Positions 14,886 through 54,400 of a stretch of 64,000 nt of DNA are shown here, piece by piece; the first letter of the stretch is position 1; every line of letters starts with the position of its first letter. Under the pieces are notes generated by a model. It did not search any database. It was not told where the DNA came from and saw nothing but the letters and a program-made list of their open reading frames with translations. The DNA comes from Eimeria necatrix. Its lineage: Eukaryota; Apicomplexa; Conoidasida; Eucoccidiorida; Eimeriidae. The translations under genes and the position numbers were made by a program. The stretch covers positions 1-64,000 of the forward strand of contig NW_013653258.1 in assembly GCF_000499385.1 (NCBI RefSeq), given 5' to 3'.

Positions 14886-14916
<31 letters not shown>

Positions 14917-19900: not shown

Positions 19901-20548
19901 ACAAACTGGCAAGTGAACCCGATCAGGCTTCCTAAAAGGGTATTTTTGCTTCTTTTTGTGCACACTGCTCTGTTTTGCTCTGCTGAAAGGGCAGACAAGA
20001 CACGCTGTGGGCTGTGCAGTGCCTCTGCGCCTTCAGCATTGAAGCTTAGTTGGACCCCTGACTACTTGCGTTTTCTCTTGTCCGTTTTGTCGGGTGGTAG
20101 GACCCCACGCGGGAGAAGCCCTCGTGCCTTACTACCGTCAGCTGCTACCGTGTTTTAACCTCTTCATCTCGAAAAGGAACAATCTGAACAGCGCCACAGA
20201 CTACGCGCAACGAAGAAGGCAGGAACCACACCCCACCCATTTTTAACCCTTGAAAACAGCTGCACACACAGTCCAAGTTCACCTCCTCTTAGAGCCAACG
20301 CACTGTCCCCTGCACCGCAGACCTTTCTGTTGGACGCACATGACCTGCCCCCAGTTGCAACTCTTCAGGCCCACAGCCGTCAAACAGCAGCAGCAGAATC
20401 GAATGTGTCTTTCTGCTGCAGGGAGGACGTTGCTGTGTTAATTGAGGAGACCCTTAAAATGATGGAGGAGACAGGGGGTCCTGATGCCTTTATCAACATT
20501 AAATACATGGTGCCCATTTACGAGTCCCAAGTGCTTACGGGACGATGA
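16951..20548 (+). CDS. PACRG: Parkin co-regulated gene protein homologue, seven exons
   Basis: A conserved axonemal protein of the doublet-microtubule inner junction; in coccidia only the microgamete is flagellated, so expression there is expected. Exons are 16951-17209, 18083-18175, 18656-18774, 19273-19371, 19863-19908, 20101-20218 and 20422-20548, giving 286 residues. Landmarks are [90 protein letters not shown] and [15 protein letters not shown]. Introns 5 (GCAAGT donor at 19909) and 6 (GCAGGA donor at 20219) are GC-AG. Only these joins give the right phase, and the spacing between conserved blocks then equals that of the human protein. No GT donor works before the in-frame stops. Exon 1 (86 codons) is supported by phase and an ATG, not by homology; its donor GTCGCT is weak, so the N-terminus is tentative. 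Confidence 0.93.
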
Positions 20549-21713
20549 GAGTTACAGCTGTACAATGCGATGCTCCTTGAATGTGAGAGAGACCACCCCG
20601 CTAGTGGCCCTGTCTATTGGCTCCGTCTATTTTGGGGCATTTGGCCCCTAGCTAATGCCCCCTCACTAAAAGGCCAGTATCACTGGGCTTTCCCATGCAT
20701 CACTTGGCATTTGTGTCCACTGTGGCAAATCCAGATTTGAGCGCCCCTGTGCAATTGTTGGCGCCTCCACTTGCTGGAAAGCGCTTTTAGAGGCGCAGGT
20801 CTCTAGTAGCGGGCCCTTGAGTAGGCCCCCTTTAAACTCCCTGAAAAGAAATTTAGTACGGGAAAGAAGGCACCCTATGAAACCCTTTCCAAGCTGCGGG
20901 CCCATAATGACGGTGCGCCTCCGCTTCAAAAGCCCTCTTTAAAGGTGCACCAAAACAACGCGGTGTAGCCAACTCAATCAGTTTGCCTGGAGTTCGCCGT
21001 CGGCGTGCAAAGAAATAGGGACAGAGCAGGGAGCAAGAGCTTCCAGAAAGTAGCTGTAGTATAAGGTGCTCTGTGCGGTGTCAGTGGGCTGTCTGCACAT
21101 GCATTTCTTCCTTTATATCTTTGCACCGTGAACTTTTTCTTTCCTGTGGTTGCCTGCTGGTTTCCACTGTTTCCTACATCTCGGCTATCTAGGTCTCTCT
21201 TTCCCGCGCTGGCTCTCACTGCTTTGGTTCCAATCACTTTGCTCTGACTCTGCGTATGCCTCGATGTCTGCATCCCCAGCCTGTCTGTCTAGCTGTACCT
21301 TTAACATCCCCGTAAATTAAATAGCCACAATCAAATCAGAGAAACACAGCCACTGCCGGAACCTCGGCCAGTCTCTGTGCGGCGGCGCAGAACAATCAGC
21401 AGCGTTAAGCTGCGATAACTGCCGCAGCAGCAGAAACTTCCCAGCCAACCGGTGCAGCAGCACAAAATGCTGCAGCAACGCATGCTGCATCAACACATGA
21501 TGCAGAAGTGTCGCGGCAGCAACACTCATTGCAGAAAAAACGGCTGCCGCTACAATGCAGATGCGGCAGCAACTGGTGGGGCTGCAGCATAAGCTCGGCC
21601 CTTGTCTGCCACCTGAGGCTCCACTGTCTGCGGTCAATGCCCTAATATCAGATTTGTAAACCTTAGGAATAACAACCCAAAGCTGCATTGGTGTAAGAGC
21701 TGCTGGCAACCTC
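20549..21713. other. Convergent intergenic spacer
   Basis: Lies between the 3' ends of PACRG and the TPR gene. No gene or repeat of note is visible. It should contain both 3' untranslated regions. Confidence 0.6.
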
Positions 21714-24700
21714 CTACGGCATGGCAGCTCCGGCAGCACCAGTAGCCCCAGGGTCACGGCCTTTGAATGCAAAAAAGCCTGCAGCAGCAAAGCACAAACA
21801 AACTCTCAGTGGCCAATACAAAGTTCTAGACGCCAGAATGTGAGAGCAAAAGAGAGCCAATTCGGTGCATAGCTTGAAGCTAAAGTCTTCGTTGTCTTAC
21901 TTCCGTGTTTGGCGCATGCCACGTGCTGCTTGACAGCCTTCGACTCTGCATCAGCAGCAGCAGCAGCAGCTAGCTCAGCAGCAGCAGCAGCAGCAGCAGT
22001 GTCTGCTGCTGCCTTCTTGGCTGCTGCTTCTGCTGCAGCAACAGCCTCCGGACAGGCTTTCCCCTTGGCTCTCTCCGCTGCAGCTGCAGCTGCATCAGCA
22101 GCAGCGGCAGCATTTCGAGCAGCAAAATCCGCAGCTCTGGCTCCGTCTGCTGCCGACGGCAGCTCCAGGAGCAGCGGGAATCTGCTGCGTTCGGGGGGAA
22201 GCAGCAGCAGGCCACCTAGCTGCTCAACTACTGGCGCGCCCCTGCTGGGTGGCAGTGGCGGTGCTGCGGCTGTTCTTGCTGCTGTCACTGATGAATATGC
22301 AGCAACATCCTCCGCTGTGCACATAGTGCTCTCTGTGACGACCGTTAGCTGCAGTCAAAGATACAGGGGCAGAGCCACTAGCGGTAGAGATAAAACCAAA
22401 CAAAATGAACGCAGAGTGTAAAAGCTGCTAAAGAGCAGCCAACGGCTCCCCAATAGACACCTAGGCCGAGAGAAGGGCAAATAACTAGGTAAGTAGGGAA
22501 AACACAGGAAGCCCAACAGCATAACCAACAACTTCGGGCTAGAATATGATAAGCGTAGAGACAAAATAATAAAGGGCAACAGCACGGGCGGTGAGGCAGG
22601 CGGGGGCAAAAGTATAAGAAAAACAGGAAACGGATAAAGAGTCGTCGAGGAGGATATGAATGTGAGCAGACCTAGGAGAGTGAGAATAGCATGGAGAATG
22701 CACGGCAGGGAATTGAAAAGATAGACACTAAGAATAGAATGCCTGACAAGAGAGAGAAGCAAGCTGGTAGAATGCCCATCAGCAGCTCACCACATTGTTG
22801 TCTATAAGGAGACGCAGTGCCTCCACTGTCGCTTCAGATAGGGTGTCTGGCCCTTCTGCTGTGGCCTGAGTACCATTGGAGGGCCCCTGGAGGGCTCCTA
22901 GGGTGCTGAAAAGTGCTATATCTGGAAAGAAAGTACATTTGGGGTTGGAGAGAATGCCGGGGACTTTCTGAGAAACAGAAACAGAAAAGGACTCAGTTCA
23001 TGTTTCTTTCGATCTGATTGGTCACTGTTCTCTGCCCAACGCCGTGAAAGAGGCACTGGAGCGCAAGAAATTTAAAGCAGAAGATCCAGCAGCTCAGAGA
23101 GCTCCAGCAGCAGCTGTAAGATTCACGCGGGGCAAGTTAATGCAGACACTGGAAGAGGGAGGTGACGCCAAAGGGCTTCAGGAGGCACATTAATAGACGC
23201 ATGCATGAAGGCTTAAGAAAAGAATCGGCGCGAAAAATAGATCTGGTGGTCCTGAGCAGCGGAACGGAACATGAGGCATTGCAGCAGCAGCAGCAGCAAC
23301 AGCAGCCAGCACATACCTTCGTCAAATCCGAGTAAGTGCCTTTGAAGAAAACAGCGACCTGCTCTCGTCCGTCGACTTTGACGCAGTGTGGGGGAGACAG
23401 CTCTCCCTTCACGAGGTCTTCTGTGGCAGCAGCACCAGCGGCAGCAGCAGCAGCAGAAGCAGCAGCAGCACCAGCAGGGGTAACTGAAGAGGACCAGAAG
23501 CACTAGCTGTGGCTGCAGCTAAGGCTCAGCAATGAGAATGACAGCGCAGCAGCACTCAAGGAGCAACAAGCACGTGCGCAGCACACAGTAAACGCCTCGG
23601 AAGCAGCAGCGGCAAAAAAAGCAGCAAAAACAGCAAAGACGACTGCGTTGGCAAGAGCAGCAGCAACGCAACAAGCATTTGGAGCAGCAGCAGCCACTAA
23701 CAGAGAAGCTGCGGCTGGACACGGTGAAGAAGCACCAGCAGCAGCACCAGGTGCGGCAGCAGCAGCCTGAGCAGCAGCAAGAGCAAAGATGGCTTGCCTT
23801 CAAACTTAGTGGGGTTGGGCGCCCCTTGAGTAAATCCTACAAAGAGAATTATGAGGGTTTTCAGCTGCGGCCACCTCTCCAAGATGGAAGTGAAGCGGCA
23901 GCTCAACTCATGATGTGCTGAGGCCCCTAAAATATGGAGGCAGAGTGTATCCTTCTTCAAATCGGGCAAAGCTTGCTTCTGCTGCTGCTCCTGCTGTTGC
24001 AGCTGCAGCTCGTGCAGGGCTGAAAGCAGCGTGAGGGGGAGAGAGCGAGTCAAAGGGAAATTGCATTCCTCAGACAAGTACTCTAAAGAGTGCGGACGGA
24101 GCCACAAAGAGCTGTCTTGGTCATCATTGCGCCACTGTATGTCCCATATGAAGCTGTTGCTGCTGTCTGCGTTGCTGCTGCTGGTGGTACTGCTCGTGTT
24201 GCTGCTGCTGCTGCCTGTGTTGCTGCTGCTGCTTGTGTTGCTGGAGGTCTTGATGCTGGGATCGTCAGCTTCTTTCGACGGGGTGCCGCTGTTCGTGCTG
24301 CTGGTGTTGCTGGTGTTGCTCTTGCTGCTGCTGCTCTTGGTGCTGACGCCCATCATTTTCCGCATCAGCTTTCGCTGCTGGATCTTGTGCAATTCCCGTT
24401 CCCGTGCTATCTCTTGCTGCAGTGACAGAGCCAAAGGGTCACCTGGCTGCACTTGCAGCAGCAGTTCTGCTGCTTCTGAAGCGTCTTGAAATTCCTGCAG
24501 CAGAAGATGCCGCAAAAACAGCTGTTGCAAAAAGTAGAGAGGAAGCTGCTGCCCGCGCAGCTGGTGCAGCAATCCCTGCAGAAGCAGCAGCAGCTACACT
24601 ACGAACAGCAGTCCCAAGACCAGTCACAGCAGCAGCACATCCACCCGCAACAGCAGCATAAGATTACATTGACCATAAGATGCGCCTTGGCAAGCCTGTA

Positions 24701-26167
24701 GAGCGCCTTGGGGTGCCTCTTCTTCAGCTGCAACGCTCTGGTGCAGTGGTGAATGGCTGTGTGAGCTTCCCCAGTTTTGAGAGCAGCTGCAGCCAAATTG
24801 AGATGTAAAGGCAGCTCCAGGGGAATGAGTTCCTGGCCCATGTGGGGCCCTGGGTGCGCAGACGAAACCAGAAACAAAAAAGACAAAAATAATCGATCCC
24901 GGCGAGATGCAGCAGCTGCCTATACACCACACGGCTCGCTAGCAGCAGCAGCAGCACTTGTCCCACACAAACACAAATAGGCAACAACCCGCGTGCACTT
25001 GCTGCAGCGCCATTAGCAGCAAGCAGGGGCGCAGCCAAAGACAAGAGCTGCAAGGCAGCAACGCATGCAGAGAGGGGCGGCAGGAGAAGCAGCAGCAAAC
25101 GAATGCACAACACCAGCCACTTGTCCTAGAGCCTAGACTCTGGTGCCCTAAAGGACGCAGCAGCTAACCTCGGCAAGCGAGTGAGAAGCAAACCTTGAGC
25201 GATAGCTGCCACTCCCTGATTGCTTCGTCGACTTGACCCTGAAGGCAGCAGCAGCAGCACCGCCAGCAGCGGCAGCAATTAAAGCAGCACGCCGGCAGCA
25301 GCGAGAAACAGCTGCAATGGCACCAGCAGCAGCAGCTACACCAGCAATAGCAGAAGCACCGCAAAAGCTGGCTGTACGGCTAACCGCAGCAGCAGCGGCG
25401 AAAAGCAAATCCGCAGCTGCACCAGCAAATGTGACTGGTGTCGCAACAAGAGCAGCAATGCAGCGGCAGCAGCAACAGCAGCAAGAACTTGCCTGCTTCC
25501 AGAGTTCGTTCCCCCTCTCCTTCCTTTCCTCGACTTCCCGGAGCTTCTCAGCGACCTCTGTAGCATTTGAAAACAAAGAAAACCGAAGATGCCGAAGTAT
25601 AACAGAAACGCAGCAAAGAGATGAACTGCTGCAACGGGATTGACCCTATGGCAGCGGCAGCAGCCGCTGCAGTTGATGCAGCTGCTGAGATGGGGCGACT
25701 CTGAATTGTACACATAGCTATTCCAAGACTTCCCCTGCTGCCAGCCTCTTTAGATCCTACTCTGTTTCTATATCTTTTCCCCTTTTCTGCTTTTTCTGCA
25801 GCCCCTTTTCTTCGGCTGCGTCTGCCTCCCGTCTTCTGCGGCTGTACCTGGAGTGTCAGCATCACCTTCACTGCTACTATGCCCCTTTCCCTTTCTGCTC
25901 AACTCAAGCCGCAGCAGCAGCAACGTAGCTACACTTGGCCAGCAGCAAATAGCGGTCTACCAGCAGCAGCATCGGCAACGGCGAACCTCTTTCCTGCTCC
26001 ATTGCCATTTCCTTGACCTCAGGGGGTGGGGGCGGGAAGGGCTCCGTGTATTGGTCTCCCAATCCTGCATCTTCCCCTGCTGCTCCTGTTGCTGGTGCAG
26101 AGCCGCTCTCTTCGGCTTGCGCTGCTGCTACCGCCGAGCCGACCTTCTCAGGAAGTGTCTCTGCCAT
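21714..26167 (-). CDS. TPR protein with MSS51-like C-terminal region, nine exons
   Basis: Exons are 26167-25987, 25557-25493, 25238-25169, 24849-24674, 24494-23798, 23420-23317, 22967-22791, 22348-21901 and 21778-21714, giving 660 residues with every phase consistent. After a Pro-rich N-terminus, residues about 62-185 form TPR helices (RKERGNELWKQ/GQVDEAIREWQLSL; LHLNLAAAALKTGEAHTAIHHCTRAL; ALYRLAKAHLMEFQDASEA). A Ser/Asn/Thr-rich linker follows. From about residue 350, CLHILGASAHHEL, TLIILFVGF, PDIALFSTLGAL and VEALRLLIDNNVLTVVTES resemble the C-terminal region of MSS51/ZMYND17 proteins, but no MYND finger is present. A long Ala-rich helix is inserted late (residues about 545-610). Introns 2 (GC at 25492) and 5 (GC at 23797) are GC-AG. 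The exon 3 end is the least certain: an alternative pairing, 25194 with an acceptor inside exon 4, also keeps frame. TPR is firm, MSS51 likeness moderate. Confidence 0.8.
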
Positions 26168-27216
26168 CTTCAAAATTTATAGAAAGCAAGGAGCCTCAAG
26201 TGAGCTCACTGCTAGGTGCTTAGCAAAAATGCCGAGGAACAGCTGTAGCAAGAGCAGCAGTGTGTACAGTAGCAACATCAGGAGCTGGCGCTGCTGCCGC
26301 AGGGGGCCCCGTGCCGAACCAGCAACTCCGACCCCGGGCAGTGTTTCTTCTTTACTTTATGAGTCATTATTTTCCAGGAAATACTTTTCAATTTTGAATT
26401 TACTCTTCATTTTTACTTTGACCATGCCCTGTGGGTGCGTCAAGCCGGGCGCCCTTCACTAGGACGCGAGGGGCCCCTGTTGCTGCACCCTCTCTCCAGT
26501 TTCTATGCAGGGGCAAGAGAGCAGGCTCAACGGCACTCTTAGACTGCAGAAGGGCCTCCTATCTGTGCGTGAGAGCGGCCAAGCCCCTCAAAGCTGGCTG
26601 CATCACCTCAGACAAGGGTCCGTAAATAGGGGCCTCGCTTCCGGCAAAGGCCCCTCCGCAAAGTATGTACAAATAGGCGGAGACTTCTTATCCGAGGCAG
26701 TCCCCAGGAAGTCTGAAGCCCATAAACGTGCCCTCACTTCTGCTGGGACCTTTCGTTTTCACTGGCGCCCCCTGGCCCAGAGGGGTGCCTCCGACTTGGC
26801 AGGCGACGCACGGGTCCTAGAGAAATCCCCAAGCCTAAACCAGGACTCAAAAGCTTGGCGTAGCGCATACAGGGACACCCTGGCCGTTGGAGAGCCTCGC
26901 TGGAAGACAGTATCTTTGGCAGTGTCTTCAGTTTTATTAAGTCTGCGTGTGTCTGCCGCGGCTCCTGTGTGTCTTTGTGCCCCCTCCACCTGCACAGCTC
27001 CCCACATATATCTGCATTTGCCTGTCTGAGCGCTGCTGTTTCTGCCTGTTTGAGTGGCCGCCTCTGCCTCTCCTTGGGCCCTCCTGGGGGGCCCCGTTTG
27101 CCTCTGCGTGTTGCTGCCCCCCTACTCGCCTTCAGCCATATTTGCACATTTGTCTTAATAGCAGCTGCTGTCGGTGCCCCTGTCGCTCTCTGAGCGGCGA
27201 ACTCCGCTCCTTGACA
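26168..27216. promoter_or_regulatory. Divergent promoter region, TPR gene and PIG-P
   Basis: About 1 kb between two divergent start codons, with an AT-rich patch at about 26340-26425 and no convincing coding sequence. The frame running through 26505-27029 has no recognisable features. The promoter role is inferred from position. Confidence 0.45.
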
Positions 27217-29027
27217 ATGGGCGACTCGACCTCCACAGAGGTGAACGGCTTTGTGGGCTGGCTGACTTCCTTTGTGGCTTTCTTCGCCTACTTCTTCTGG
27301 TCCCTCAGCAGCAGAGAGCAGCTCGAGAGGCTCGGCATCAGCTACTACCCGGACAGGCAAGCGAGCCAGACGGCGACACAACTGAACCCCCCATGACAAG
27401 CCAAACTTCTTGAGCGCACTTGTGCTGCTGGCTCTGTTGGGTCTACTGGGTCGCTGCAGTGGCGGCTGTGGCTGCAGCTGCCTCCCCTTTGCCGCGTATT
27501 GGGCTTCTATGCCTTCTGCAAAGGCCCTGTCTACCCTTTTGCGTCAGTCTTCTGTGGTGGCCTTTGTGTGAGCATGTCTGGCTTTGCGCGTCTCGTCTAC
27601 ATTCGCCTCTTGGCCTCCCTTCTTGGCCGTTCCAGCTTCTGTTACTCCTTTCTACTCTCTCCCCTCAACCCTATAGATCGCAGCTGGCGCGACCTCACTG
27701 CCTATTTTTGCATGCGGGCAAACGAGGCGTGTACCTGCATTTGGCATCAGAATCTGTCGTTGTGCGCTGCTGCTTGTTGGAGACTCTTGTGGCAGCTTAC
27801 AGAGTTGCTGCCTACAATGTTGACCGCCTGCAGATGTTTCCGGTCTCAACTCTTCCGCATGTGCAGGCCTCTGCGTGTTGCGTGTGCCCGTGGCTGTCTG
27901 CGGTAGCTGGGCTGAGTAGCTGTGCTCTGCTGTGGCGGCGCTTTGCGCATGCTTCAGGTACTGGGCGCTGTCGCTTCCTGTGTTGCTGCTGGTCGTGCTA
28001 GCTGTTGTCTTCTTCGGCTATGTCTTAATCAACATGCTGTACTCCCCGCCTCCTGACGACATGCGGCAGTTCACAGGCAAGGGGAACAAAAATGCAACTG
28101 AGAGAACAAATAGAAAGCACAAACAGCACACCGTACAGTTCAAAGAGCTCGAGCGACAGCTCCACATTCCCCAAGTTGGGAGCCGTAGACGCTAGCTACT
28201 GCATCTGCCCGGCTGTTTGCAAAGATGCTCTGGCGTGTTAGTGCAGCATCCGTGCGCCCAGGAAGCCAATGCAAGTTGCACATGCTATGTGCCGGTGCAG
28301 ACTTGAACGTATATATTTATATATTAGATAGTGCGCAGACTTGAACTGGGATAGAAGGATTTCTGGTCGTTTGCTGTACCTTGCTCTGTGCACAAAGTAG
28401 AATTGCCTGTTCCTCTCTCGCACTTCATGCGCGGCAGCTTTCGCTCGTTTACACGCCCAAGTCTCTAGTTAGATGTGCAGCTGCACATTTCACCACCTTC
28501 CAGAGGTGTGAAACCACCGCATATCACTTAGGGTTTTTGGCTGTGAAGGTTGGGGCATGCGGATGCAACTGTTCTGTAGCTCCTCAGTCTATTTCGCTGC
28601 CTTGTGCCATCTCTTCTAGTCCGAGCCCTAGAACGTCGACCCAGAGAACAAACTTTCTTGTTTGGGCATGCGTCATTTTTTGTGATTTACAGATAGTCGA
28701 GCCAGGGCGCCTTCCCCAGAAGCTGAGCGTTCGCTCCAGCTTATGGCTGGCGCGTCTGCTGTAGCAGTGGCATCAGCGGCCGCAGCAGCAGCAAGAGGTC
28801 ACCCGCAGCAGGTCAACTGCCAGGACCATATCCAGAAGCCTGTTGTGAACTTGCTGCAGCGGCACCAGCAGCAGCACCACCACCACAGGCATACCGGCAC
28901 AATAGGCGACATCCCTCTTGCACTTGTCTCGCGGGTGTTATTCCCCTTAAACCCAAACTTGGAGGGCAGACCTGCAGTCCTCGGGGGCCCTCCCTTCTAC
29001 TACGAGCCGCTCAAGCCCAAGCCCTGA
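27217..29027 (+). CDS. PIGP: PIG-P subunit of GPI-GlcNAc transferase, three exons
   Basis: A small ER membrane subunit of the complex that transfers GlcNAc to phosphatidylinositol, the first step of GPI-anchor synthesis. Exons are 27217-27356, 27958-28076 and 28693-29027, giving 197 residues. Two membrane spans are visible: GFVGWLTSFVAFFAYFFWSL (about residues 12-31) and one from LPVLLLVVLAVVFFGYVLIN. The family motif ISYYPDRYWALSLPV between them is rebuilt exactly by the first splice. The C-terminal GDIPLALVSRVLF corresponds to the conserved DIP...VN tail of the family and is reached by the second splice. Both introns are GC-AG (donors GCAAGC at 27357 and GCAAGG at 28077); no GT donor keeps frame in either case. 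An Ala/Gln/His-rich insert (residues about 105-150) separates the spans from the tail. If intron 2 were retained, translation would stop at 28195. Confidence 0.93.
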
Positions 29028-29058
29028 AGCCAGGCGCGTACCCACGTCCCTGGAGAGC

Positions 29059-29082
29059 CCAAACGTCAAGATTGACGTTTGG
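29059..29082. repeat. Perfect 11-bp inverted repeat
   Basis: CCAAACGTCAA and its exact reverse complement, separated by 2 bases, 32 bases after the PIG-P stop codon. It could form a hairpin in the 3' untranslated region. Confidence 0.85.
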
Positions 29083-29307
29083 ACTCAACCTATCGGGCCC
29101 CGAATGATGTACGCCCTTGCGATTGGGGCCTGCACAATTGGTAATAGTGCCATAGTTGAGCCCGCCGAGGCGTAGTTTGTAGGAATTCTAGCGACAGCAG
29201 AGTAGCCTGGGGCCTATGAGCACATAGGGCCTCCAGTAGCACTGCACAGCAGGCGACGTGTACCATTTGCTGGCACGGGTGCCGCGCCATCCGACGAAAA
29301 CGACACT

Positions 29308-29340
29308 AAAAGAGGGCCTCACCGAAAGGCCCTCTTTTTT
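29308..29340. terminator. Terminator-like hairpin between convergent genes
   Basis: A perfect 12-bp stem (AAAAGAGGGCCT with its reverse complement) around a 7-base loop, running into a T tract. It has the form of an intrinsic terminator, but this is eukaryotic DNA. Its role between the 3' ends of PIG-P and the RCC1 gene is therefore open: 3' end formation, small-RNA end or chance. Confidence 0.6.
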
Positions 29341-29514
29341 TCTTTACAAAGTTAATGTATTGGCAAGACTTAAGGGATTTGTTTACGGATATACTACGAC
29401 AACGGGTGCTGATGCAGTGGATACTCCTGTAGCGGTTGCTACTGTAGCAAAGATGTTGCTAAGAACGTCCTTATATTGCTGGGGACCGCGTTTTGAAGGC
29501 TCCAGAGCTGTTCC

Positions 29515-32500
29515 TCAGGGGCTTCTGTTGTAGCTGCTGCTTCTGCTGCTGCAGATTCTCTCCCAGTACGAAATCTCCAGCAGCAGCAAACTGTGCGTTT
29601 CTCCTGCTGCAATATCCTTTACTGTTACTCTTTCAATGGATCTCCACACGCCATCTGCACCCAATTCCCCGCGTGTTCCCATGGGCGGGTCGTCGTCTTT
29701 CGGGGCCGTGTACGAGCGGCTTGCGCTGCTCCGGCGTACGGAGCCAAATACACTTAACTCACCTTTGCGTCTTCGAGCTTCAAGCTTGTTGCGGGTGCTG
29801 GTATTACAGACGCCGCCGCCACTGCTACTGCTGCTGCGTGAACTGAAAGGTTGGCCTCCGCTTTTGCTTGATAGTGAAGCTTGCCTGCTGTATCTGTTCG
29901 AAGCAGCAGAGTTGGCCTGTTTTCGTGTAACAGATATGGGAAGCCGTCGGATGCCTACAGAGAAAAGGGAAGGCCGTTTATTAGTTTCCGTACAGCTTTT
30001 TGACCTTAGAGGTACCCCCTTGCCTTTTGTTTGTGGAGCTGTTACCTCCATGGAATGTGGGCTGGAAGACAAGCAAGCTTCATTTGCTCTGTTTTTCGCG
30101 GCTGCCGTTGTCCCTGTATGTTCTCTTGAGCCCTTGTTAGCTGTCTTGTCGTCTGTCCCTTCTGCTCGTTTTGCCTGTCTCTTCCCAACCTCTGTATCCT
30201 TGCCCCCTAGAGAGTCCAGTCGCGTGAGCAGCCGGGAAAGATATGCCTTCAATGGGCTTTGTTGCTCTGGTTCTCCCGCCTCATTTGCAGCATTCCTGCG
30301 GGTCTGACAAGCAGGCCCAGCCATTGTACTTGGTGCTGCTGCGAGGAATGAGCGTTTCCGATAGTTCCGCAGGATCTGAAGAGGAGTCCGAAGTCGTTGT
30401 GAGAAAAAAAGATGCCCCTTAATACGTTGGGTGACTGCTGCATCTTTTGCCTGCGGTGAAGCCTCTGCAGTTCCTTTTCCGCTGCCGCTGCTGTCCCCAC
30501 TGCAGTTGCTGTTGCTGCCTCCAAAGCCGGCAGCAGTATATGCTAGTGGAGGTGTCCAGATGTTCTGGAGAGCACTGTACGCAAGTGCCTCAAGATCAAT
30601 TCGCTTTGGAAGCTTGATTCTCTTTCTCCCTGTTTCCTGTCTCTGTTGGGGAGATAGGGGAATCTGCTGCTGCTCATTGCTGCCCCATGCATATAGCTGA
30701 ATGGGCAACACGCAGGCGTGCTGTTCCAGATTTGCTCTGTCAGGACGGAGATGGGACCCTGACTGGCCTCCATACTTACCAAAAGAGGCCGAAGGACAAT
30801 GAGGAAGACTGTCGGAGGAGACTGCAGAGCTGAAAAGGTCTGTAAAATGGAAACTGCCCTCAGCAGAACCGCTGAGTCCACAACTAAAGGTATTGCGCCG
30901 CAGCGGAGGCGACAAGCTCCTCAAAGGCGCCTGAAGGGGAAAAGAACGTAGTGAGTGACTCCTGCACGGGTCTTCTTTTCTGGAAAAGCTGGAGCAGCGA
31001 ATTGCCTCAGCCGCCTCTGAGACAGTTATCTCCCTCAATACCGTTTTTGTCCAGCCACCGTCCCCTGCTGCTTTTTCTTCTGCATTTGAAGACGTGCTTG
31101 ACGTCTTATCAATGGAAACAAAGGAAGGACCCGTCTGAGCAAAGCAGAGCGGAGGCACCCACGGGGGCCGTCCATACAGGCCACTTGTCTTCTCTGACCA
31201 GTCCACAGAGCCGCTTTTGCTAGTAGCCTCCAGTGAGGGCGGTAGAGAGGCGAAGGACGACGATGAGGAGCTGCGAGAACGTTCATCCTCGGAAGAGTGA
31301 CTGGAGGGGCAAAATGAAACGCCGGCAATCGTAAAGGCGAGGCCAAGGGCCAATCTGTGGATCTGGATGTAGGAGGGACGTTTTGGGTCCTGCAAGAAAG
31401 GTAACTGAGACAGCAAACGTCACAGAAAAGTACCGGAATCCTTGAGACACAGCAGAGATTGGCACTTGAGAAGTTGCCCAAGCTGATTACTTGCGTCGGC
31501 CTCCCGTTGCTTCTCAGCTGTAGCTCTGAATATGTTGGCTACTTCGTGCGACATTCTGTTGCCCTTTGAGTGTGCAGACGCTCCCTTCGTCAGCTGTCTG
31601 TGGTTCGCGCACTGTCCACTTTGTAACCATGTATGTAAATTCCCTGAGGCTGCGATTCCCTTGCCTTCTTCAGCCTCCTTTTATTTCTACATGAGTTAGT
31701 GCGTGATTCTCTCCTTCCACTGCATTGCGTCCCTCTCAAACTCGTCTTTTCAGCTTTTATCAGCCTTTTTGGTTTCCTCACCTCTATAGGTTTCACAACA
31801 TTGCGGATCGAGTTCAGACCCAGCTGTCCCTCAGACCCTCTGCCCCACATCAACAGTTTGTCTCCCGACTGACGGTAAGCGCTCTTGCTCTCCTGTTTCT
31901 CTTGCTGTGGTGCAACTGCAAATACACCCCAAAACACCACATTTGGCAGCTACTAAAGGAAGCGGCATGCCTTTCAGTGATTAACATATTAAGGTTAGCT
32001 TGCATGGATCCGTATATTTCACATCTGTTTAAATGAAATGAGGGTCTCCAGGGACACTGAAAGCCCGTATGCTTCCATTCCCCACGGAGTTTCAGCTCCG
32101 TACGCTTCTTTTTCTGGGCTTGTTGAGCTAGCTTGGCCCTGTACTGCTGAAGAGGTCTTGAGAAGAGAAGTTTCGAAGGACGTCCCAGCCTTTTCCCTTC
32201 CTTTTTATTTTTTTCCTCCCTCACGACAGCAGTTGAAAGTGTAGACTTATGTTTCTGGCCCTTCCAGTCCAGCTGCTGCAGAAGTTGCTGCAGCAACTGC
32301 TGCTCGCTGCTCCTGTCCGCAGCACAGATTGCAGCGCAGTGTGTGCCGCCGCACACAACGCGTGTAGCAAAACTCCCCAAGCCCTTCAGTAGCTGAGGGC
32401 CACAGAGGTGGTGCGTCTTCGTGGGCATCTGGCGGCCGCGCCAAAGCCACTGCTGAATTGGCAAGTGATGAGACAGCACAAAACAACTGGCTGCGTCCAT

Positions 32501-42926: not shown

Positions 42927-45900
42927 GGGAAAAGTTAAAGGACTGCTGGAAGAGCCGACGGAGTAGAAAAGCCTTTCGTGCGGCCACAGCTGCTGCTGCT
43001 GCTGTAGCTGCTATACGCAAGCCGCGCTGCTTCTCGGGACGTCGGTGCAACCAGGCCAAGTGAAGGCAGTAATGCTGCCATGGTGGTCTCAGAACACATA
43101 TGAGGCCCTGAAAGCCTCTCAGTAAGCCGTTATCACAGCAGCAACCAAAGCAGGGTCGCGAACAGCCGAAGCCGGCGCCCCAGGTTGCTGCTGCAGCTGC
43201 AAATTTCCAAGAAGCGGGCGCAATATGTGCAGCACAAAACCATGAAGCGGTCGAGGCGCCCTTCGTGGCTGAACGTTTTGCTTCCACTGCAGCTGTTGCC
43301 AGCGTTACCCTAGCTGCTGCAGTCGTCGCCAGTAGTAAAAGCAACCGCCGTTGAATTGGGGTTCACTCTGGTCCTTAAGCCCTATTAAATAGCATTAAAT
43401 TCCTTCTCATAGAAGGAAAGCGGGAAACAAATGCTGCACAGGAGCTATTGAAAGCTACAGACCATAGCTGTTCCCCCAAGATCGAGGGAGTAGCAGTTGC
43501 AGCAGCGGCAACAAAAGTGGCAGCTCCAGGTGAAGCAGCAAAATGATACGATCCGTTTTTCATCAAATTGCTAAATTTACCTATTTGAGTTAAAGAGAGC
43601 GAAAGGGAGGAAAAATCATGGATAGAAACCGCGCAAGAGTGTGGGAGCTGCCGCGAGTAGCTGTTTATGCCACAGGTGAAAAACGGAGGTGAAAATACGC
43701 AACGTATACACCGTCTAATAAGTAAAACAGTACAATTTCAACAAAAAGGGAAAACGAACCACACAAGAACATGAGAACGTGAGGTCAAAGCGCGTCAGTT
43801 TTGCTCATTTGCAGCGCTTCCTGGGACAGAGGCGGTGGCGTTGCTCCTGTTGGCACTGCTCATGCACCTGCTGTTGCTTTTGCCTCTTTCATGGCAATTC
43901 CGCTGTACCTTTTACTTGTTGTTGAGTAAAAACCCACGTATGTGACATAACAAAGCGACCAGAGAGAGCATTTGACCCTCTTGTGCATCTGAAGTGCAGC
44001 CCTGTGGCGCTGCCGCTCCAGTTGTAGCGCTGGGCTCCACAATCTCTGGATCTTGTGGAAAAAAGGCAGACTGTGCACTATGAATAGTCCGTAGCATATT
44101 TACAAGGCTTTTTTTCCCTTCAAGTAGAGTCTTTCAAAGCACAGGCGCCGCCGCCTCCCCTACGCTGTGGCGTGACGATTGCTTGATCCCTACACCGCTG
44201 CTCCGCACATGGAGCAGTATGGTGTTGGCCAGGGAACGAGATGCATCTCCTAAATTGTGCATATAAACTCTATTCAAGTTAGACATTCGGTTTGGCGAGC
44301 TTTTGTACAGGGGAATGGGCACACTGGAGCGCGTGACGACTTGAAACTGCACTCAACATCGCTATTTCCGTGTCTTAAGAATTTTGCGTAGGCTTTATCA
44401 CGATGGTAGAGTCTAGCAAAGCTTCTTCCCATTGATTAATCTCTAAGCTCGCGTCTATGAATATTATATTGGGTATGCAGAGCGCCGTTCAGGTACTTGT
44501 ATGGCAGTTCGCTAGCTCACATTTGTGTGCTACCCTCAACTATTTACTGAACGCGGAAGCAAGCAGGTTTTCGCGCTACTCCGGTGTCTAGCCACCAAAG
44601 AGTAGGCTAGAAAAATGAAGGGCCTGGTAAGAATTCAGGCTAAATGCGACACTACCTACCAGGCTTGGGACAGCATGGCCAAGACTGGCCTGCAGTGGGT
44701 GGTAGTACCTGAAGATGATTAAGCTTCCCGTTAAAAGGGCGAAGTGCTAGATTTCCCCTGCCCTAAAACCGGGCATTGCGGGGACAAAATACACCAGTTC
44801 TGGTGTCGCAAAATATTATATTTGCAGTTCAAAACGATTCTGTTCTGTTTTAGCCAGACAGTGTCCACAATATCCCCACGAACAATATCCCCGGCGAGCC
44901 AACAAGCATTTGAAAAAGAACAGTGGAACGTGGTCTTATTAATCAAGGGCGCACAATCACGATCGCATTCCTTTTTTGACGATCCGAGTAGCCGAAGTGG
45001 TGAGTAGTGAGGAAACGGCTTGGAGTCATTGCTTGGTTGTGTTTGCTGTGCGAATCTGCAAAATATTTCCAGAGTTTTCTAGTAACTGTGGCTGGATGGG
45101 GTCCACACATCTCCCTCCCCCCTTAATTGGCTTTTCGGTTGTTCAAGTTGCTAGTTTGCACCGTTTTCGCTGGGTGCTCGCCGTTTGGGCAACTCCGGTG
45201 CGAAATCTTCATTTGCTGGGCCACATGTGTATGAGTTACCCAGGTGCATATGATACTTCTTAGTGAACATGGTCACATGTTTACCCGATGTGCTAGCATG
45301 TGTGTGCTAATGCGAGCTGAAAGTATGAGCTGTCATTTATAGGCATGGGGTAGGTGGTAGTGCGCATTTCCTGGAACAGCCCCTAGTTGTAGCTGGTTAA
45401 CCACGACACAGCCAGTACATTCTGCCACTCATTTTACAGCTCTGGAAACCCTTCTGCAATCATACCAAAACAGTAGAAAGGCAGAAGGGTAGAAATTTCT
45501 ACCAAGCAGTGGCAGGGCCTCAAAGGAAATCGAGGAGGCTTCTTGGCGTGTACAAATATCCCTTCACTTGCAGGTGCATTGCCGGCCCTATATGCCAAGA
45601 CTTCTTGCGGTACTCACATGGTCTCGCCACCGTCTGAACTCTACGGTTCTAGGTATACTATAATATATTTGTACATTGCGTATCTTCATTTCGGTGCATA
45701 AGGTATTCGAAGGCTCCCTTCTGGCTCGATTGTGGTGTGCAGCACTACGTTCCACCCGAAGGCAAAAATCATGAGTCTGAAGGCAGCCGTTGAAGATGAT
45801 TCCTTGTGGGCATCTTGGTGCACTCGAGGCCCCTTATAACGTTGCCCAATTGAGGCTGACAACCGTGTCTCCAGTGTCACGTAGTACTATATCTATGCCA

Positions 45901-46906
45901 ATTGCCACGTAGTACGATAATTATACCAATTGGCACTGCCGATTTACTGCTTCCTCTGATGCACGGAATTGTGTCTAGAGCAGCTCAAAACCGTCATACA
46001 TATTATGGCAACACATTACAAGTGCGAAGAGAGGCTACAACTGTTTGCTGAGTAGCTTTAAGCCGCAAAAATCGCAACCTCCCCTGTTCCCAGCCGCCCT
46101 CCCCTCTCATGCACTTTCGCGCGCCAACTCCATTAAATAAGTAGCTGCGTGCCACTCAAAGCACCAGGCCTAGCACCTCTACTTACGGCACTGCTGTTGT
46201 AATATTGGAAATAGAGGAGATACGCCGGCCGCATGGCCTACGCAGTCAAGGACACTCCCACACTACCCAGCCCAGCAAGTGAAGAGAGCCAACTGAGGTT
46301 CTGAACATGTTACACCCCATGTAGTGAGGACTAATCACTAGTAAAGGTAGCTTCCTTTCATAAAGGACCGTTCTCAATTTAAATCGTGCGGGAATGCCAG
46401 GCAGATCACAATCGGAATCATTAGGCGGGGTTGTCCAGCTGTGAAGTTCTAGCTACTGCACAACCTTCCCTAAAATTGCATTTTGAAAAACAAACTTCCG
46501 TATTGTCAAAATAACTTGGCTTCATGACGACAGGAGCAAAAAGCCTGGAAGAGTGTAGCGCCACCCAGGAAAAGAGATGATCGATTGCGCTGTTTGTTGT
46601 GTGTCTGTTGCTTCTGCCACAGCATCTGCTGAGGATAGCTTCGTGATTTAAATTGTTGGTTAGATTATTTCCATCCGCACACAGAGAAAAAAGCATTTAG
46701 TTGCGGGATCGGACGTTGTGCCGTTGTCGTGTGTACAGTGCATGTCTGCCAGCTGCCAGCGCGCGAAGCATGTGTCCGTACTTCGCTCCCAGCGCGATAA
46801 GCAAGTGCACTTCACACATGATGTGCTTCTCACATTTTCTCATTTTATCTCTGTTTCATTCTTCACCCTCCTTTTCTCCTATCCTTTTGTGTGCGGTGTA
46901 TCGACA
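42927..46906. other. Intergenic region spanning the drop in repeat density
   Basis: CAG/CTG runs continue to about 43545 and then nearly vanish. From there to the aldo-keto reductase gene the sequence is plain, moderately AT-rich and without a credible gene. The pyrimidine-rich stretch at about 46820-46890 lies just upstream of the reductase start. Confidence 0.55.
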
Positions 46907-48694
46907 ATGACTTGCCCGAGCCTTGCTGGGGTTGATCTTCTTGCAGCTGCAGAATGCTGCACACTATCCAACGGTGTTCGTATGCCCATTATAGGGCTAG
47001 GGACATGGCGGCTTCGCGGAGATAGGTTGCGATCTGGGGTCTTCGGGGCGCTTCAAGAGCGATACGCTTTGATTGACACCGCATCAGTGTACGGAAATGA
47101 GGAGGAGATCCGGCAGCTCCTGAAGGAGGCAGGTGTGTGGCGAACTTTCGAGCGATAAGTGCTCAGTTAAGCGTTTAATAACTTTAGAGACAGCGGTTAG
47201 CGTGGGGGAGCGGTGCCACCTTTGCTGCTGTGCTGCAGGAAACCCCAGGATATTCTTGACCTCCAAGCTGAAGCCCGAAGATGCCCAAGGGACGGAAGCA
47301 GTTCAGAAAGCATTTGAAGGCACAATCGAGCGTCTAGGAGTGGAGCAGCTCGACCTGTATCTAATACATTGGCCAGGTGAACGGACTTGTCTGCGTTGAG
47401 CTGCCGCAACAGTTGGAGGCGAACAGCTGTCCCAAGATTTCAAGTTTATGTGTACAGTTGTGTTTGCCAAGGCACGTACACACCAGGCTAAGTGCCTAGA
47501 ACTGTGCGTATTTCAAGTTTATGTGTACAGTTGTGTTTGCCAAGGCACGTACACACCGGGCTAAGTGCCTAGAACTGTGCGTATGTCGCGCTTTCAGGCA
47601 GCGGCGGGGTGGACGCCAACAGCCCAGCAAACAGGCAGAGGCGGCTGGAGAGTTGGCGAGCCTTAGAGCAGTTGTATGAGAAGAAAAAGGCAAGCTGTGA
47701 ATGGTTCGTATCCCTTGCATTCGTTTTCAAAAAAGTAACGGCGTCCCCATGGGGGTGGAGGAGCGAATAGATTGCATTGTGTATGTGTCGCGAACGTGTG
47801 CGGTTGTGCTAACGAGAGCACTAGATGGCTGTGGATTTTGAATAGGGGAGTGCAAGGCTTTGGCTCTCTTTGTTTAGGTCCGGGCGATTGGGGTGTCGAA
47901 TTTCTTGGTGCCGCACATCGAGCAGCTGATGCAGGACGGCGCGAAGATCATGCCAATGGTCAACCAGGTACAGGCGCTTAACACCGATGCGCCGGAACTG
48001 CCGCTGACTTGGCTAGTTCGTGAACTTGTGGGTGATAGCAGAAGGACTGGCCGTCCCTGTCTTGTGGCTCCGATCTGGCCAGCCAGTTATTGGGTATTTT
48101 GTATATGTGTGCATTGCCTTGTCTGCAGCTTGAGTGGCACCCAATGTGTTGGGTTCCCGATTTGATCCCCTTCGCAAAGAAGCACAATATAGTACTTCAG
48201 GCCTACTCCTCGCTTGGGTCCGGGGAAAGCAGGCTGCTTGACCACCCGGTCGTGAAGGAGGTTCGGCACACCTGTACTACCGCTAGTTTACCTTTTACTG
48301 ACCATGTTGAAAATGTTAGAGCGTCATTTGAGTGTGTAGTGAGGGATCTTGTGGGACGGGACCGGCGTGATGCGTTCACCTGTGTTGGCCGTGGCTTAGG
48401 CCGTGTGTAATTTGAGGGCATGCTTGTCATGTTGATCGGTTTATCTGCGGATTCCAATGTGTTTGGGTGTATCAGATCGCGAAGGAAATTAGTCAGCCAC
48501 CCAGCGTAGTGCTTTTGCGGTGGCCTCGTCAGCAGGGGCTGCTGATCATTCCGTGCAGCACATCCCAGGAGCATCTGAAGGAAAATTTGGCAGCGCTGAC
48601 CGTGCAACTGTCGGAAGATCAGATGAAGAGACTTGGCGCCATTCATGAAAATGTCAAGCACCGTTTCTGCTGGGACCCTAACACCATCGCATAG
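46907..48694 (+). CDS. Aldo-keto reductase, six exons
   Basis: An NAD(P)H-dependent reductase with the AKR TIM-barrel fold; substrate not predictable. Exons are 46907-47132, 47239-47376, 47598-47689, 47878-47967, 48129-48260 and 48476-48694, giving 298 residues, normal for the family. The catalytic tetrad is present: Asp57 and Tyr62 (LIDTASVYGNE), Lys85 (FLTSKL) and His119 (LIHWPG). VRAIGVSNF and VNQLEWHPMCW match the barrel signatures; the second crosses an exon junction, which confirms it. The C-terminal PCSTSQEHLKENL is the usual cofactor-phosphate loop, with CST in place of the more common KS. Intron 3 is GC-AG (GCAAGC at 47690): joining there gives LYEKKKVRAIGVSNF with exactly the family spacing. 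Frames upstream of 46907 are open too, so the start could be earlier, but similarity begins after it. Confidence 0.95.
47438..47583. repeat. 73-bp tandem duplication in an intron
   Basis: Two adjacent 73-bp copies (47438-47510 and 47511-47583) with a single visible mismatch (A/G), inside intron 2 of the aldo-keto reductase gene. The near identity points to a recent duplication. Confidence 0.95.
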
Positions 48695-51410
48695 AATCTT
48701 ATCCATTGCCACTTCACGTTTGTCTACGTTGGTTGCGTATTCTTTACTTGTCGGAGGGACTCACAGTCTTTAATGCAGAACAGCCTTTAGTCATTTCCTC
48801 CATCGTATTTTTCCCAGCCTGTGATCCTCCAAGTGGCTTCCGTAGGCTGCTAGGTCAGCACACACACACAAGCGCACAGGCTGTCCCTGCGTCCGGAGTG
48901 CAACAAGCAGTGCAACAACGGGGAGGCTAGCAGTCCTCGTTTAGCCGGAGAGTTTCTCGCGGCAGGGTTGGCTTGGCAAGCGACTCTGCTGCGATTACTG
49001 AAAACCGCAGCGAGCTGCTTTCGTCATGACAACTAGCATCCCAAAATGTTTTTAAAACTTCCAGACAGTTGTACCGCTAAGATCTGCGTTTGTCATGAAA
49101 AAACAGCATCATATCGTCCTCCCAGAGGATACAGATGGTTTAGCTATGTGTATGCTGTAGGCGTCTGCTTGCATCGCAGGCTTATGTCCGTATTTGCATT
49201 CCTAAGTTCACGAGTCTTTGACCGCGCACTTGCTGCGGTCTTCAGAAGCCGAGGACAGCGAGAACATTGTGAGCAGCGGTAGCGCATGCTCCTGCAAAGA
49301 GTACCCCTGCTCTTCGGGAAAAGCTAGAGGCGCTGTTCAGTGTGCAGCGTGCAAGGCAATATTGTCGAATACGGCGAGACCTTCCACGAACTTCGTCACT
49401 GCTGCAAGTCGCGTCATCCATGTGGGATATGTACTTCACGTGGACCCCCGTATCATGTGCCAGTGAAAGGCATTTTTCCAACGGAGAACTTCCCACCTGA
49501 TGAATACCGTAATTATGGCGGTGACACCATCGCAACAAGAAGAATCTTTGTTACAATTTCTGCTTGGCTGAGGCAACGGGACCACGCCGCCCAACAAGAA
49601 ATAGGTGCAGTGGCAACGCATCTATAGGTTTTAGCAGTAGCAGCAACAACGCAGCGCTCGGCATGTGTCACTCGCCGTGAGCAATGAAGCACATAAGTGG
49701 CTAAACTAAAGGGTTTCCACAAAATGCCAGAACAATATTATTACCAGACAGGGACAGGAAAGCCTTCGTCAGTACATCGCACTACTGCGTATAGAATAAG
49801 TGCTTACAAGACCACCGCGGTATGATGGTTGACAACCCCTGAAGCTTGTCGCTAGTCGTCAAGCAAATCTACATCTTTCCCACACGAGTTGTGGCTCCCC
49901 AGTTAAATGTCGGAGTCCTCTGTCTCTGCGTGAGAGACATCAGGCGCTGTCTGACAAGTCGCTAGCCCCTTTCCGATGCTCCTCAAATACTTCTGAGTCT
50001 GACATAGTTATTCAGCTTGTTGGTCTCTAATACTGCCGCAAAACTGTTCAACTTCGCTCCGAAGTTATGCAGTCTCCAGTCGGCCACTTCAGTAATTCCA
50101 CAGTGTTTGTTTCAGTGTTTGCTTAGAGCAGCGCTGTTGATGAAAATCATCACATGGTGTGCTCCGCAGTAGCAGTGGCGATGCGATAAAACCGTACTTT
50201 TCTGGCGCCATTACGTGATGCACTGCTGCTGCTACGTAAAAAAAAGTCACTACTGGCGCTATCGCTCTGTTTCGTAAATGGGGAGTGAAACGCAGCAAAC
50301 GGCTCCGTGCAGCTATATAAGTAGTAACATTTTTTACGTAGCACCAGCACTGCATCACGTAATGGCACCAGAGAAGTACGGTTTTATCGCATCGCCACTG
50401 CTACTGCGGAGCAGCATGTATTTAATGATTTTCGTCAACAGCACTGCTCTAAGCAAACACTGCCGAATTACTAAAGCGGCCGGCTGGAGGCTGCAGAGCC
50501 AAGTTGAACATCTTTGCAGCAGTTTTAGAGACCCCGCAGTTATGCTTTCGTTCCCAGATGCCGCTCTTCACCTCCCTACAGTTCTCTACTTGCACATAGG
50601 TGCGTGTATGCACGAAGTGCGCTGCCGTCCATATCTCTCCCAGGAATATTACACATTCATCAATGTGCATGAAAACACATCAACCATGTACTTTATATAG
50701 AAGGCAGCGTGCATAGGGTGTTCACCATCACTGCAGTGCTGCTGAGTGAAGCTTCTGCTTGTTTGATCTTCCTCACTATCCTTCTGGTTGTATTCTGAAC
50801 GCGAGGCTTAATAAAACAGGTTAAAACGTATGAGCTGGTCGATTAGCGTGACATAGCAAGTGGCGAATCTATTCCAGCAGGTGACGAATCTCCTGCGACT
50901 ACGCACTACGAGGAATTCTGAAGATCAAAACAGGATTACTGACTCGCTAGTTCTCTACAGTGCACCATAGGAAAGCACACCTCTTTGCCTCTAACATCTC
51001 TGATTGTATAAGCGCATGACCTTTCAGTGATCGCTTGCACACTAAGTAGGCTGTGTGTGAAGTTGCATGCACAAACAGAAACGCATTCAAAGAGCGAAAA
51101 TGAATGAAACTGTCTGTCATTCAATCTGAGTCTAGAACTGCCACCCTTACCCTGTACATCTTTCCACGCCACTCTGTATGCCTCGAGGGATGGCGCAGTT
51201 AATATCCTTGCTCCCAAATGCTTGTGCCCACATGCACTGCAATATGTGAGCAGAAATGGAGAGAAAATGACAGGGGAAGGGGAGCGGACAGTTTAAGAAC
51301 TAGTTCGCGGGTGCTGGGCTTCTATGCCGCGGCAAAGAGAACCCTCCCACAAACAACAAAAACGTTTGCCCGTAACCAGAGCTTACTTCAAATAAAGTTA
51401 AGCTGTGAAA
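48695..51410. other. Intergenic region with a foldback element
   Basis: No gene is supported. A short CACACACA stretch lies at 48859-48868. The main structure is the inverted repeat at 50022-50534. The other open frames are short and featureless. Confidence 0.55.
50022..50534. repeat. Large inverted repeat (foldback/MITE-like), about 215-230-bp arms
   Basis: The left arm, about 50022-50254, is repeated as its reverse complement at about 50319-50534, with a spacer near 65 bp. Long identical blocks include GCAGTAGCAGTGGCGATGCG, GATAAAACCGTACTT and CCATTACGTGATGCA. Mismatches and a small duplication (TTTCAGTGTTTG) in the left arm show some age. No transposase or target-site duplication could be identified by eye. 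The short matching ORFs in both arms are by-products of the symmetry. Confidence 0.9.
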
Positions 51411-54400
51411 TTAACGGCCTTTTTTCGGCTTCTTCAACTCCACCTCCACGAACTTTTTCGGAATGCCAAAGTGCGAAATCATCAGCTCAGCGACTGGCCG
51501 CGCAACGTTGCCCTGTGCAGAGTAAAAATAAAAAAATCAACTGGTAACAATAAGCAGCAATTGCTCTATGTATTACTGAAAATATTTAATATTGGCTACT
51601 GGCTCAACCGCCGATCTATTATCCATTGTTTGGGGGCACGTTACGGACGAGTACTGCTGCTGTGCCTCTTCACCCGCGCCCTAGTGATAAAAGATATGTC
51701 TCCCCCCAAAATTTGAGCAAATTTAAATGCATATGCATACTTGGGAGGTAGACCACGGTAGTGCAGTTAAGACACCGATGTTTTTTGTCACAAATCATAT
51801 TTGACGTATACATACCTGTACAGAAACAGCGGAAACCACCTTCGAGCCAGGTGGGGCATAAACAGAGGCCGATGCTGCCAATTTCTTCTGCAAGAATTCT
51901 GCAACAGCTTTTGGCTCGACCAGAAAATTTGTGACGTTCCTAAAAGGGCAAAAGAAACACGAAACTACAACCTGGTTGCATCAGGATATATGAAAAAATG
52001 CCGCAGCGAACAGCAAACCAACCTTGTTGCTGCTTTACCTCTTCGTGTTCCCGTTCCTACTTGTGCAGCTCAAGTACTCGTTATCGCTGCTTGAGTTATT
52101 ACTTTTGGTGCCGGGAGCTCACGCTATGTGTGTGAGGTGCTTCCGTCCCCCTTGCTTCTCCTCCACTGAAATCCGGACAGGGTTGCATGCACCCCGCCTG
52201 CAGCAGCCACGAGCGTGCACAAAAAAGCAAGAGAACTACAAAGCGAACGACCGCGGTAGGATGAACCACAACAGCACCAAACGCGCCTGCAAACTAGCGT
52301 ATAATCAGATCACTTCGTCAGCAGGCTTGTACATACACGATTCTTCCCTGAAGTAGTGGCAGCTCTCCCTCATCTCTAAGGACTGCATGGCAAGGCTGTG
52401 CAGTATCCATCCACCGCACAAATATTTCCCCTTTATCCATTACCAATTTTTCCTGCCCTGCTGCCTTTGCCTCCTCTCTTTCCTCCTTGGTCAGGACTGC
52501 GAACGAATCCGCAGCAAAAGGAACGGCAATATCTTTGTCTACTTTGTTCCTGGCCGTCATTGCTTCCACTCTCCTCTTGGGCTGTGTCCGTGTGTACAGG
52601 CGTGTTTCCCGTATGGGTGTCCGGTTGCCTTGCAGGTCATCAAACTTTATTGAGGGTTAAGCCAGAGAAGCCTGAAATACTGATTGCAAGTTGAGACTGA
52701 CCTGCGTCCGCCAAAAGAGGATCTATCGCAACGGTATTTTCCCTACTCCCCGAAGTGCATCGCGCCGCCTGTGTCTCTTCCTCGCCTTCCTCCTTCTTGG
52801 CATTTTGCACATCGAAGTACTTCACAAGCACCTGCCGGTATTCCTCAGCTGTAAAGAAAACATTCCTAAGACACCGCAACCCACAACTCCACGGCTAACA
52901 GATATTCCACAAGCACACAACCCCTCAAAAGCTCCTGAAACTTTACAGCAAATGCTGTGCAAGGCAAAAGCACATCTCTCTCTTCGTCCCTACCACTCTC
53001 TACTGTCGCTTCCTGCCCTTCACTTACTTCCCAGTGCGAACTTCAACTGCTGCGAAAATTCTGCAGCACTTCGCAGGAGGTGCGCAAAATTCAAAGACGA
53101 GCGGACCTGAGAAATGGCAGCGTGGGGAAGAATTAGATTCTAAGAACTACGATGCCAGCTGCATAGCTAGTCGCGAGCCCTCAGTGCGTGCAAGAGGAAT
53201 TCAGGCAGACAAGGAGATAGCGACATGCAGCAGTAATACGGACGTTCAAATTGGTCAAAAAGAAGAACGAATCGGAACAAATATAAACAAAGCAAGCTCT
53301 GTCTACTATGAAATTCTTGTCTGCTGCCTACCTTCATCTCCAGAGCGTGCAGTCCCCGCAGCATTAGGTGCATCTCGAGTTCCTTCTTCTCCTCCTGCTG
53401 CTACTGCTCCTGAAGCAGTTGGAGATGTTGCAGCAGCAGACGCTCCCGCCCTCTCCACAAGTTTCTTTTTTTGTGATTCGGGGACAGGGGTGTGTTTGCA
53501 GTAGTCGGGATGAGATCGGTTTATTTTCACGACCGACACGATGCCCCTCTGCTCCTTCGTCTGTATTAGCTTCTTTTTTGTGGCCCCTTGTATGAACTTC
53601 CCCAACTGTACATACACCCCAGCACTGCGTTCCGGAGCAGGAATCAACACTGCGTCTGTCAAAATACGCCTTTCGTGTGCAAGCAAGCCTTTCGTGTGGG
53701 CCGTCTCCTGGTCGATGCCTAATTGAAGTGCAATAGGGTGGGACGCGGCTCAAAAAGACTGAAGAAAATAAGTGCTATGCAGCCATCAGCACCGGCCAGC
53801 AATAGCAGCAGAAGTGAACTGACTTTCTTTGCTGACGATCGTCGAATATCAGGGGCTATGAATGGGCCGTCTCCCTTTGCGATTTTTGTGTAAAAGATTG
53901 CTGGAGCCTCTGTCGTAAGTTTACTGTAGCGACAAGGACAGAAAAGAAATACTGTATATATACATATACATATATTGACAGTACTCAGGAAGCAGGCGCA
54001 CCCTTGAATGCACGCATATCTGTTGTGACCAACTACTGAGCACCGCCACTTCAACGATGCGCCCACTCAACTTGCCTGTATAATGCAGAAACGTCAAGGG
54101 GTAGTTGGTCGTCCGAAACAGCATGCAACGTCTCTAACAAACATAAATCAAGGTATCCATCCTGCTCCTACGTAGATAAACACATACACGCGCCCAATGA
54201 AATACGTGCACTTACGTATTCATAAGCACACATACGCGGCCTTGCGGAGATTGATAGATGTACTGTTCTACGAAAAGCCTGTATGCGTGTGCGCCTGCTT
54301 GTGCGTGTATGTGCCTGCGTGCGCTCCACTCTTCACTTTTATGCACAGATGCATGATGTTCTTTGCAGTCAAGTGCAAATGCCTTTCGTTTTGTCAAGAT

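Follow-up and report, generated by a model that had tools for sequence, protein, structure and literature searches.

Introns that start with GC and end with AG usually account for about 1% of all introns, and those of the U2 type have a stronger donor context than GT introns. In animals, fungi and plants, they are mostly read by the major spliceosome (PMC7072748). Higher shares were reported for the algae Aureococcus anophagefferens (39.6%), Micromonas pusilla (22.2%) and Chlorella (7.7%), the three genomes richest in G+C among 61 (69.5% in Aureococcus and 65.9% in Micromonas; PMC3033335). In Eurytemora affinis, GA and GG donors make up about 12% of introns and compromised the gene models (PMC5714493); U1 small nuclear RNA (snRNA) is discussed in this connection (PMC7072748). 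Dinoflagellates and Amoebophrya also have non-canonical introns (PMC5029490, PMC7789003). Here, we describe GC-AG introns in Eimeria necatrix, starting from a stretch of 64,000 nucleotides (the window; contig NW_013653258.1) in which an earlier inspection of the sequence, referred to as the original prediction, had proposed eight such introns in five genes.

Judging from the sequence, E. necatrix very probably has genuine U2-type GC-AG introns, which would be several times more common than the usual 1%, apparently include at least one that is common to Eimeria and Cyclospora, and are likely tolerated by compensation in the donor context. As in animals, fungi and plants, these introns run from GC to AG in a donor context stronger than that of GT introns. 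The difference lies in the share, about 1% there as against 4/68 outside the window and 7/84 overall in E. necatrix, and in the GT donors, which look weak in E. necatrix. The algae also exceed 1% by far, but they are very rich in G+C, whereas the 264 kb of E. necatrix examined have 49.9% G+C. Hence, base composition alone does not explain the excess. Eurytemora affinis likewise has many non-GT donors that harm gene models; there, however, they are GA and GG, and in E. necatrix alignments made without GT preference, GA accounted for 2 and GG for 1 of 92 introns. Dinoflagellates and Amoebophrya are alveolate relatives with non-GT introns, but they use many border types, and Amoebophrya has introners with inverted repeats, whereas only GC stands out in E. 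necatrix. Lineages with a higher GC-AG share than E. necatrix are already known. For coccidia, we found no prior report of a raised share in the available parts of the open-licence literature on GC-AG introns, splice sites, Eimeria, coccidia, Toxoplasma and Apicomplexa, including the genome papers of Eimeria falciformis, E. tenella and Cystoisospora. With C at position +2 in strong donor contexts at a moderate G+C content, this lineage lends itself to tests of the amount of U1 pairing that a donor requires.

GC was read at all eight donor positions named in the original prediction, and its nearly uniform context, AG/GCAAG or AG/GCAGG (the slash marks the junction), was found at seven of them, the exception being 19909 with CTG/GCAAG. 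The introns start with GC and end with AG, the latter being imposed in the spliced alignment. The donor motif of the minor spliceosome, RTATCCTT, is absent from the GC donors, which read GCAAG, GCAAA or GCAGG. Six of the eight joins are well supported as preserving the reading frame and restoring a conserved protein (two each in PACRG and PIG-P, one each in the aldo-keto reductase and eIF2D genes) and the TPR join at 25492 weakly, but the one at 23797 is not supported (Table 1).

The GC-spliced PACRG aligned with PACRGB (8g2z_4S) without gaps over 90 residues (E 3.9e-29), and all 120 homologs considered (the best 120 of 3419) showed no gap in the six residues around either GC join. PIG-P spliced at GC scored 109.7 bits against PF08510, compared with 46.3 bits when the first intron was read through and 96.2 bits when the second was. 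The protein is identical over 170 residues, both GC joins included, to the deposited E. necatrix protein P0241, and its relatives P0242 and P0243 match it across both joins; a solved-structure match to its family was not found. For the aldo-keto reductase, splicing at 47690 gave 134.7 bits and read-through 51.5 bits, the other joins of this gene being placed by eye. The eIF2D join at 54075 yielded 65.2 bits against PF25304 and read-through 19.5 bits, with a stop codon cutting the read-through protein. At 25492, the GC-spliced protein reached 18.2 bits against PF07719, under the cut-off of 27, and the read-through had no TPR match; the structures matched by this query are mostly designed TPR proteins. 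At 23797, the match to PF20179 (14.1 bits) is under the cut-off and the join in the query is inexact. Spliced alignment with human reference proteins recovered four of the six window sites given (19909, 20219, 27357 and 47690); 25492 and 23797 were not among these six.

Donors were counted by protein-to-DNA spliced alignment, which allowed any donor dinucleotide, required an AG acceptor and charged every non-GT donor an extra 3 bits. The 18 conserved-gene alignments comprised five window genes, two genes on contig C18 and 11 on other contigs; PABP aligned poorly with four RRM loci, as did V-ATPase B with L042, and these alignments were left out. An intron was counted when the protein matched well on both sides (flank score of at least 12), and 47690 lies outside the count with a flank score below 12. 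Under this equal penalty, the 87 introns comprised 77 GT, 7 GC and one each of AC, TC and AA donors. A general rise of non-GT donors was not seen, the 14 other dinucleotides together making up 3 of 87. Without any GT preference, we obtained 74 GT, 7 GC and 11 introns spread over other dinucleotides with at most two each (92 introns), and a flank-score cut-off of 8 gave 89 GT, 9 GC and 6 others (104 introns). Outside the window, in 12 gene alignments, the share of GC is 5.9% of the 68 GT/GC introns (exact confidence interval 1.6-14.4%; binomial p = 0.005 against a rate of 1%). The four GC donors there belong to CCT-eta, CCT-beta, a VCP-like gene and ATP synthase alpha, the last with the donor tcgg/GCAAGT at FAQF/GSDLD in a protein that is identical to the reference at 250 of 309 residues. 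In the window genes, GC was found in 3 of 16 well-flanked GT/GC introns. The rate first proposed, 8 of about 46 introns or some 17%, was not reproduced and is probably an overestimate for the genome; a share above 1% nevertheless stands.

Four of the seven GC introns are in phase 2, compared with 5 of the 77 GT introns. Word counts in the 264 kb gave no donor signal: AGGTAAG occurs 19 times (20.8 expected) and AGGCAAG 59 times (60.1 expected), so such counts are uninformative on GC donors. Donor use could not be judged by coding potential, since CAG repeats look like coding sequence in several frames.

The GC donors have a distinctive context. A at both +3 and +4 is found in 6 of 7 GC donors and 12 of 77 GT donors (Fisher p = 0.0003). 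When five more sites from the window (the unverified 23797 among them) are added to the seven counted introns, A occupies +3 in 12/12, A +4 in 11/12 and G +5 in 11/12 GC donors. The GT donors are weak: position +3 is A in 29 of the 77 and G in 27. In the acceptors of the GT introns, position -3 is C in 69 of 77 and position -4 is G in 45. Exact U1 5' ends were found in four genes, one with AAACUUACCUG and three with AAACUUACUUG, so that the latter outnumbers the former 3:1 among exact matches; a fifth, weaker match starts with CAACUUACUUG. The two types differ opposite exon position -1 (C9 or U9). With the C9 type, the median pairing is -5.7 kcal/mol for GC (n = 12) and -6.4 kcal/mol for GT donors (n = 77; p = 0.51), in line with the earlier proposal that the context compensates for the loss in U1 pairing. 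If T is put at +2, the median GC donor would exceed 94% of the GT donors in strength. As the GC and GT donors pair similarly with this type and the GC context is strong, compensation is the simplest account.

The following mechanism would fit. U1 keeps an A opposite +2 (A7 in all four exact 5' ends and in the weaker fifth match), and C at +2 would thus form a mismatch. It may be tolerated because the neighbouring positions pair nearly completely, and the stability of the GC duplex would then be close to that of the average GT donor with its weak context. The GC-AG introns would use the ordinary spliceosome, and a relaxed dependence on +2 may let T-to-C changes persist in strong donors. The trait is presumably genome-wide in Eimeriidae.

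G/GTAAG is present in 2 of 77 GT donors, with 7.5 expected under independence (p = 0.016), and G/GCAAG in 10 of the 12 GC donors considered. The rarity of G/GTAAG allows another reading, which we regard as doubtful: the U1-donor duplex in Eimeria and Cyclospora might be held in a middle band of stability, with C at +2 as the favoured weakener of an otherwise perfect donor instead of a tolerated mistake, and with G/GTAAG selected against and replaced by G/GCAAG. Since only three GC and two GT donors outside the window are core-perfect, this proposal leans largely on pre-selected window sites. Furthermore, the VCP gene in L044 has the donor CCAG/GTAAGG; hence, any avoidance of strong GT donors is at most partial.

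The GC intron of CCT-eta lies at FAE/LVVEAV, and 115 of 120 homologs (the best 120 of 7993) are gapless at the predicted join. The five exceptions are gene models of E. tenella, E. necatrix, E. magna and Cyclospora cayetanensis (two), which are all the named Eimeria or Cyclospora entries among the matches listed. The models of E. tenella, E. necatrix and one Cyclospora skip 46 residues, corresponding to the pair of exons that precedes the GC donor, and those of E. magna and the other Cyclospora continue after FAE with Ala-Ser, as read-through of GCAAGC would give. The exact join is present in three proteins of close relatives, from contigs of 1.8-2.1 kb. Because the models fail only in Eimeria and Cyclospora among the matches listed, the GC donor looks common to both genera and missed by gene finders. 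This comparison of an orthologous intron in coccidian relatives, made on protein models, had been suggested in the original prediction, along with a lineage trait of the spliceosome or U1. The lineage part stands for at least one intron, but a change in U1 at the base opposite +2 was not found in the five U1 matches. Its warning that GT-only gene finders truncate proteins applies to the damaged CCT-eta of E. necatrix but not to the deposited PIG-P, which already has both GC joins. At such an intron, conserved stretches are lost from gene models of Eimeria and Cyclospora or added to them, which bears on proteome-based work on these parasites. Another stretch, VVRRAAKTHNVVGGGGAIE, is missing from the deposited CCT-eta of E. 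necatrix (P0122; locus L037) as well, so this model is wrong beyond the GC intron.

Could the GC joins have been chosen where a GT join or no intron is correct? Such a modelling artefact is known from H. bacteriophora, where the GC-AG share fell from 8.9% to 0.8% on re-annotation (PMC5906903), and it would fit the failure of 23797, the weak TPR site and an earlier 17% that lies above the share outside the window. We nevertheless consider it very unlikely, as GC appeared seven times under a penalty that left three introns for all other dinucleotides, the joins fit 120 of 120 PACRG and 115 of 120 CCT-eta homologs among the matches listed, and the deposited PIG-P agrees with the GC joins. Sequencing errors or allelic variation that turned GT into GC are conceivable in a draft assembly (44.0 Mb in 1148 contigs, with the window on C567), but random T-to-C errors would not favour near-perfect contexts, and the CCT-eta donor seems common to independently sequenced species. 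This explanation is extremely improbable.

A changed spliceosome, with a U1 variant or an altered U1C, LUC7 or PRP8 that accepts C at +2, would not require a strong context, yet the GC donors have one. U6 has ACAGAGA, and the base opposite +2 is unchanged in the U1 matches described above. T at this place occurred only in a one-mismatch pattern match at C1057, which is not among the U1 family matches, and a reversed control pattern gave two one-mismatch matches. In favour of such a change, U1 comes in two types that differ opposite -1, more copies may exist (the first-look search scored 41 of 486 candidates), and an exon-wise search of the genome gave no U1C zinc finger (PF06220), although an intron may divide this 38-residue domain or the assembly may lack it. 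LUC7 exons are present. On balance, a changed spliceosome is quite unlikely. Alternatively, GC donors may not drift passively but be maintained as weak sites through which alternative splicing is regulated. In human, nematode and Arabidopsis, an association of GC donors with alternatively spliced genes is on record (PMC2490688), and the apparent conservation of the CCT-eta intron across Eimeria and Cyclospora would agree with such a role. However, several of these genes have housekeeping functions, and intron retention would cut their domains short; we judge this role unlikely.

Several observations weigh against genuine and frequent GC-AG introns tolerated by compensation. With 4 GC introns among 68 outside the window, the sample is limited in size, and the conserved genes used may be unrepresentative. 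The reference proteins for the spliced alignment may be inexact, and the human-reference alignment missed 28077 and 54075. Forbidding GC cost 11 half-bits in CCT-eta and 16 in ATP synthase alpha, but only 4 in CCT-beta (CCT2) and 0 in the VCP-like gene (L043), for which an equally good solution with neither GT nor GC exists and GT alone costs 10 half-bits. Allowing GA or GG instead of GC regained part of the score in CCT7, PACRG and PIG-P, though less than GC did. The U9 type of U1 is encoded by three of the four exact matches, and pairing with it is somewhat poorer for GC than for GT donors (p = 0.04). Finally, the mRNA origin of P0123, P0125, P0126, P0242 and P0243 we infer only from the shortness of their source contigs.

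Table 1 GC-AG introns and comparison gene in the window, and U1 snRNA genes
Feature	Position	Strand	Details
GC-AG intron, PACRG	19909..20100	+	CTG/GCAAG ... GGTAG/G, phase 1
GC-AG intron, PACRG	20219..20421	+	AAG/GCAGG, phase 2
GC-AG intron 1, PIG-P	27357..27957	+	CAG/GCAAGC, phase 2
GC-AG intron 2, PIG-P	28077..28692	+	CAG/GCAAGG, phase 1
GC-AG intron, aldo-keto reductase gene	47690..47877	+	AAG/GCAAGC, phase 0
GC-AG intron, eIF2D winged-helix region	53924..54075	-	CAG/GCAAGT, phase 2; acceptor placed by eye
GC-AG intron within TPR motif	25239..25492	-	CAG/GCAAGT, phase 0; weak support, acceptor placed by eye
Claimed GC donor, MSS51-like region of TPR gene	23797..23798	-	AAG/GCAAGC; candidate, position only
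60S ribosomal protein L8 (comparison gene)	13890..16392	-	6 introns found, all GT-AG
U1 snRNA genes	L009:1501-1661; L010 and L011:1501-1660; L013:1501-1635		two kinds, AAACUUACCUG and AAACUUACUUG

A tandem pair of 73-base copies with a 98% match occupies positions 47437-47584 of the window, directly upstream of the aldo-keto reductase exon that has the GC donor at its end. Positions 1411-1450 contain 5.7 copies of GGTTTAG, which we take to resemble a telomere repeat, and a tRNA gene is located at 62808-62879.

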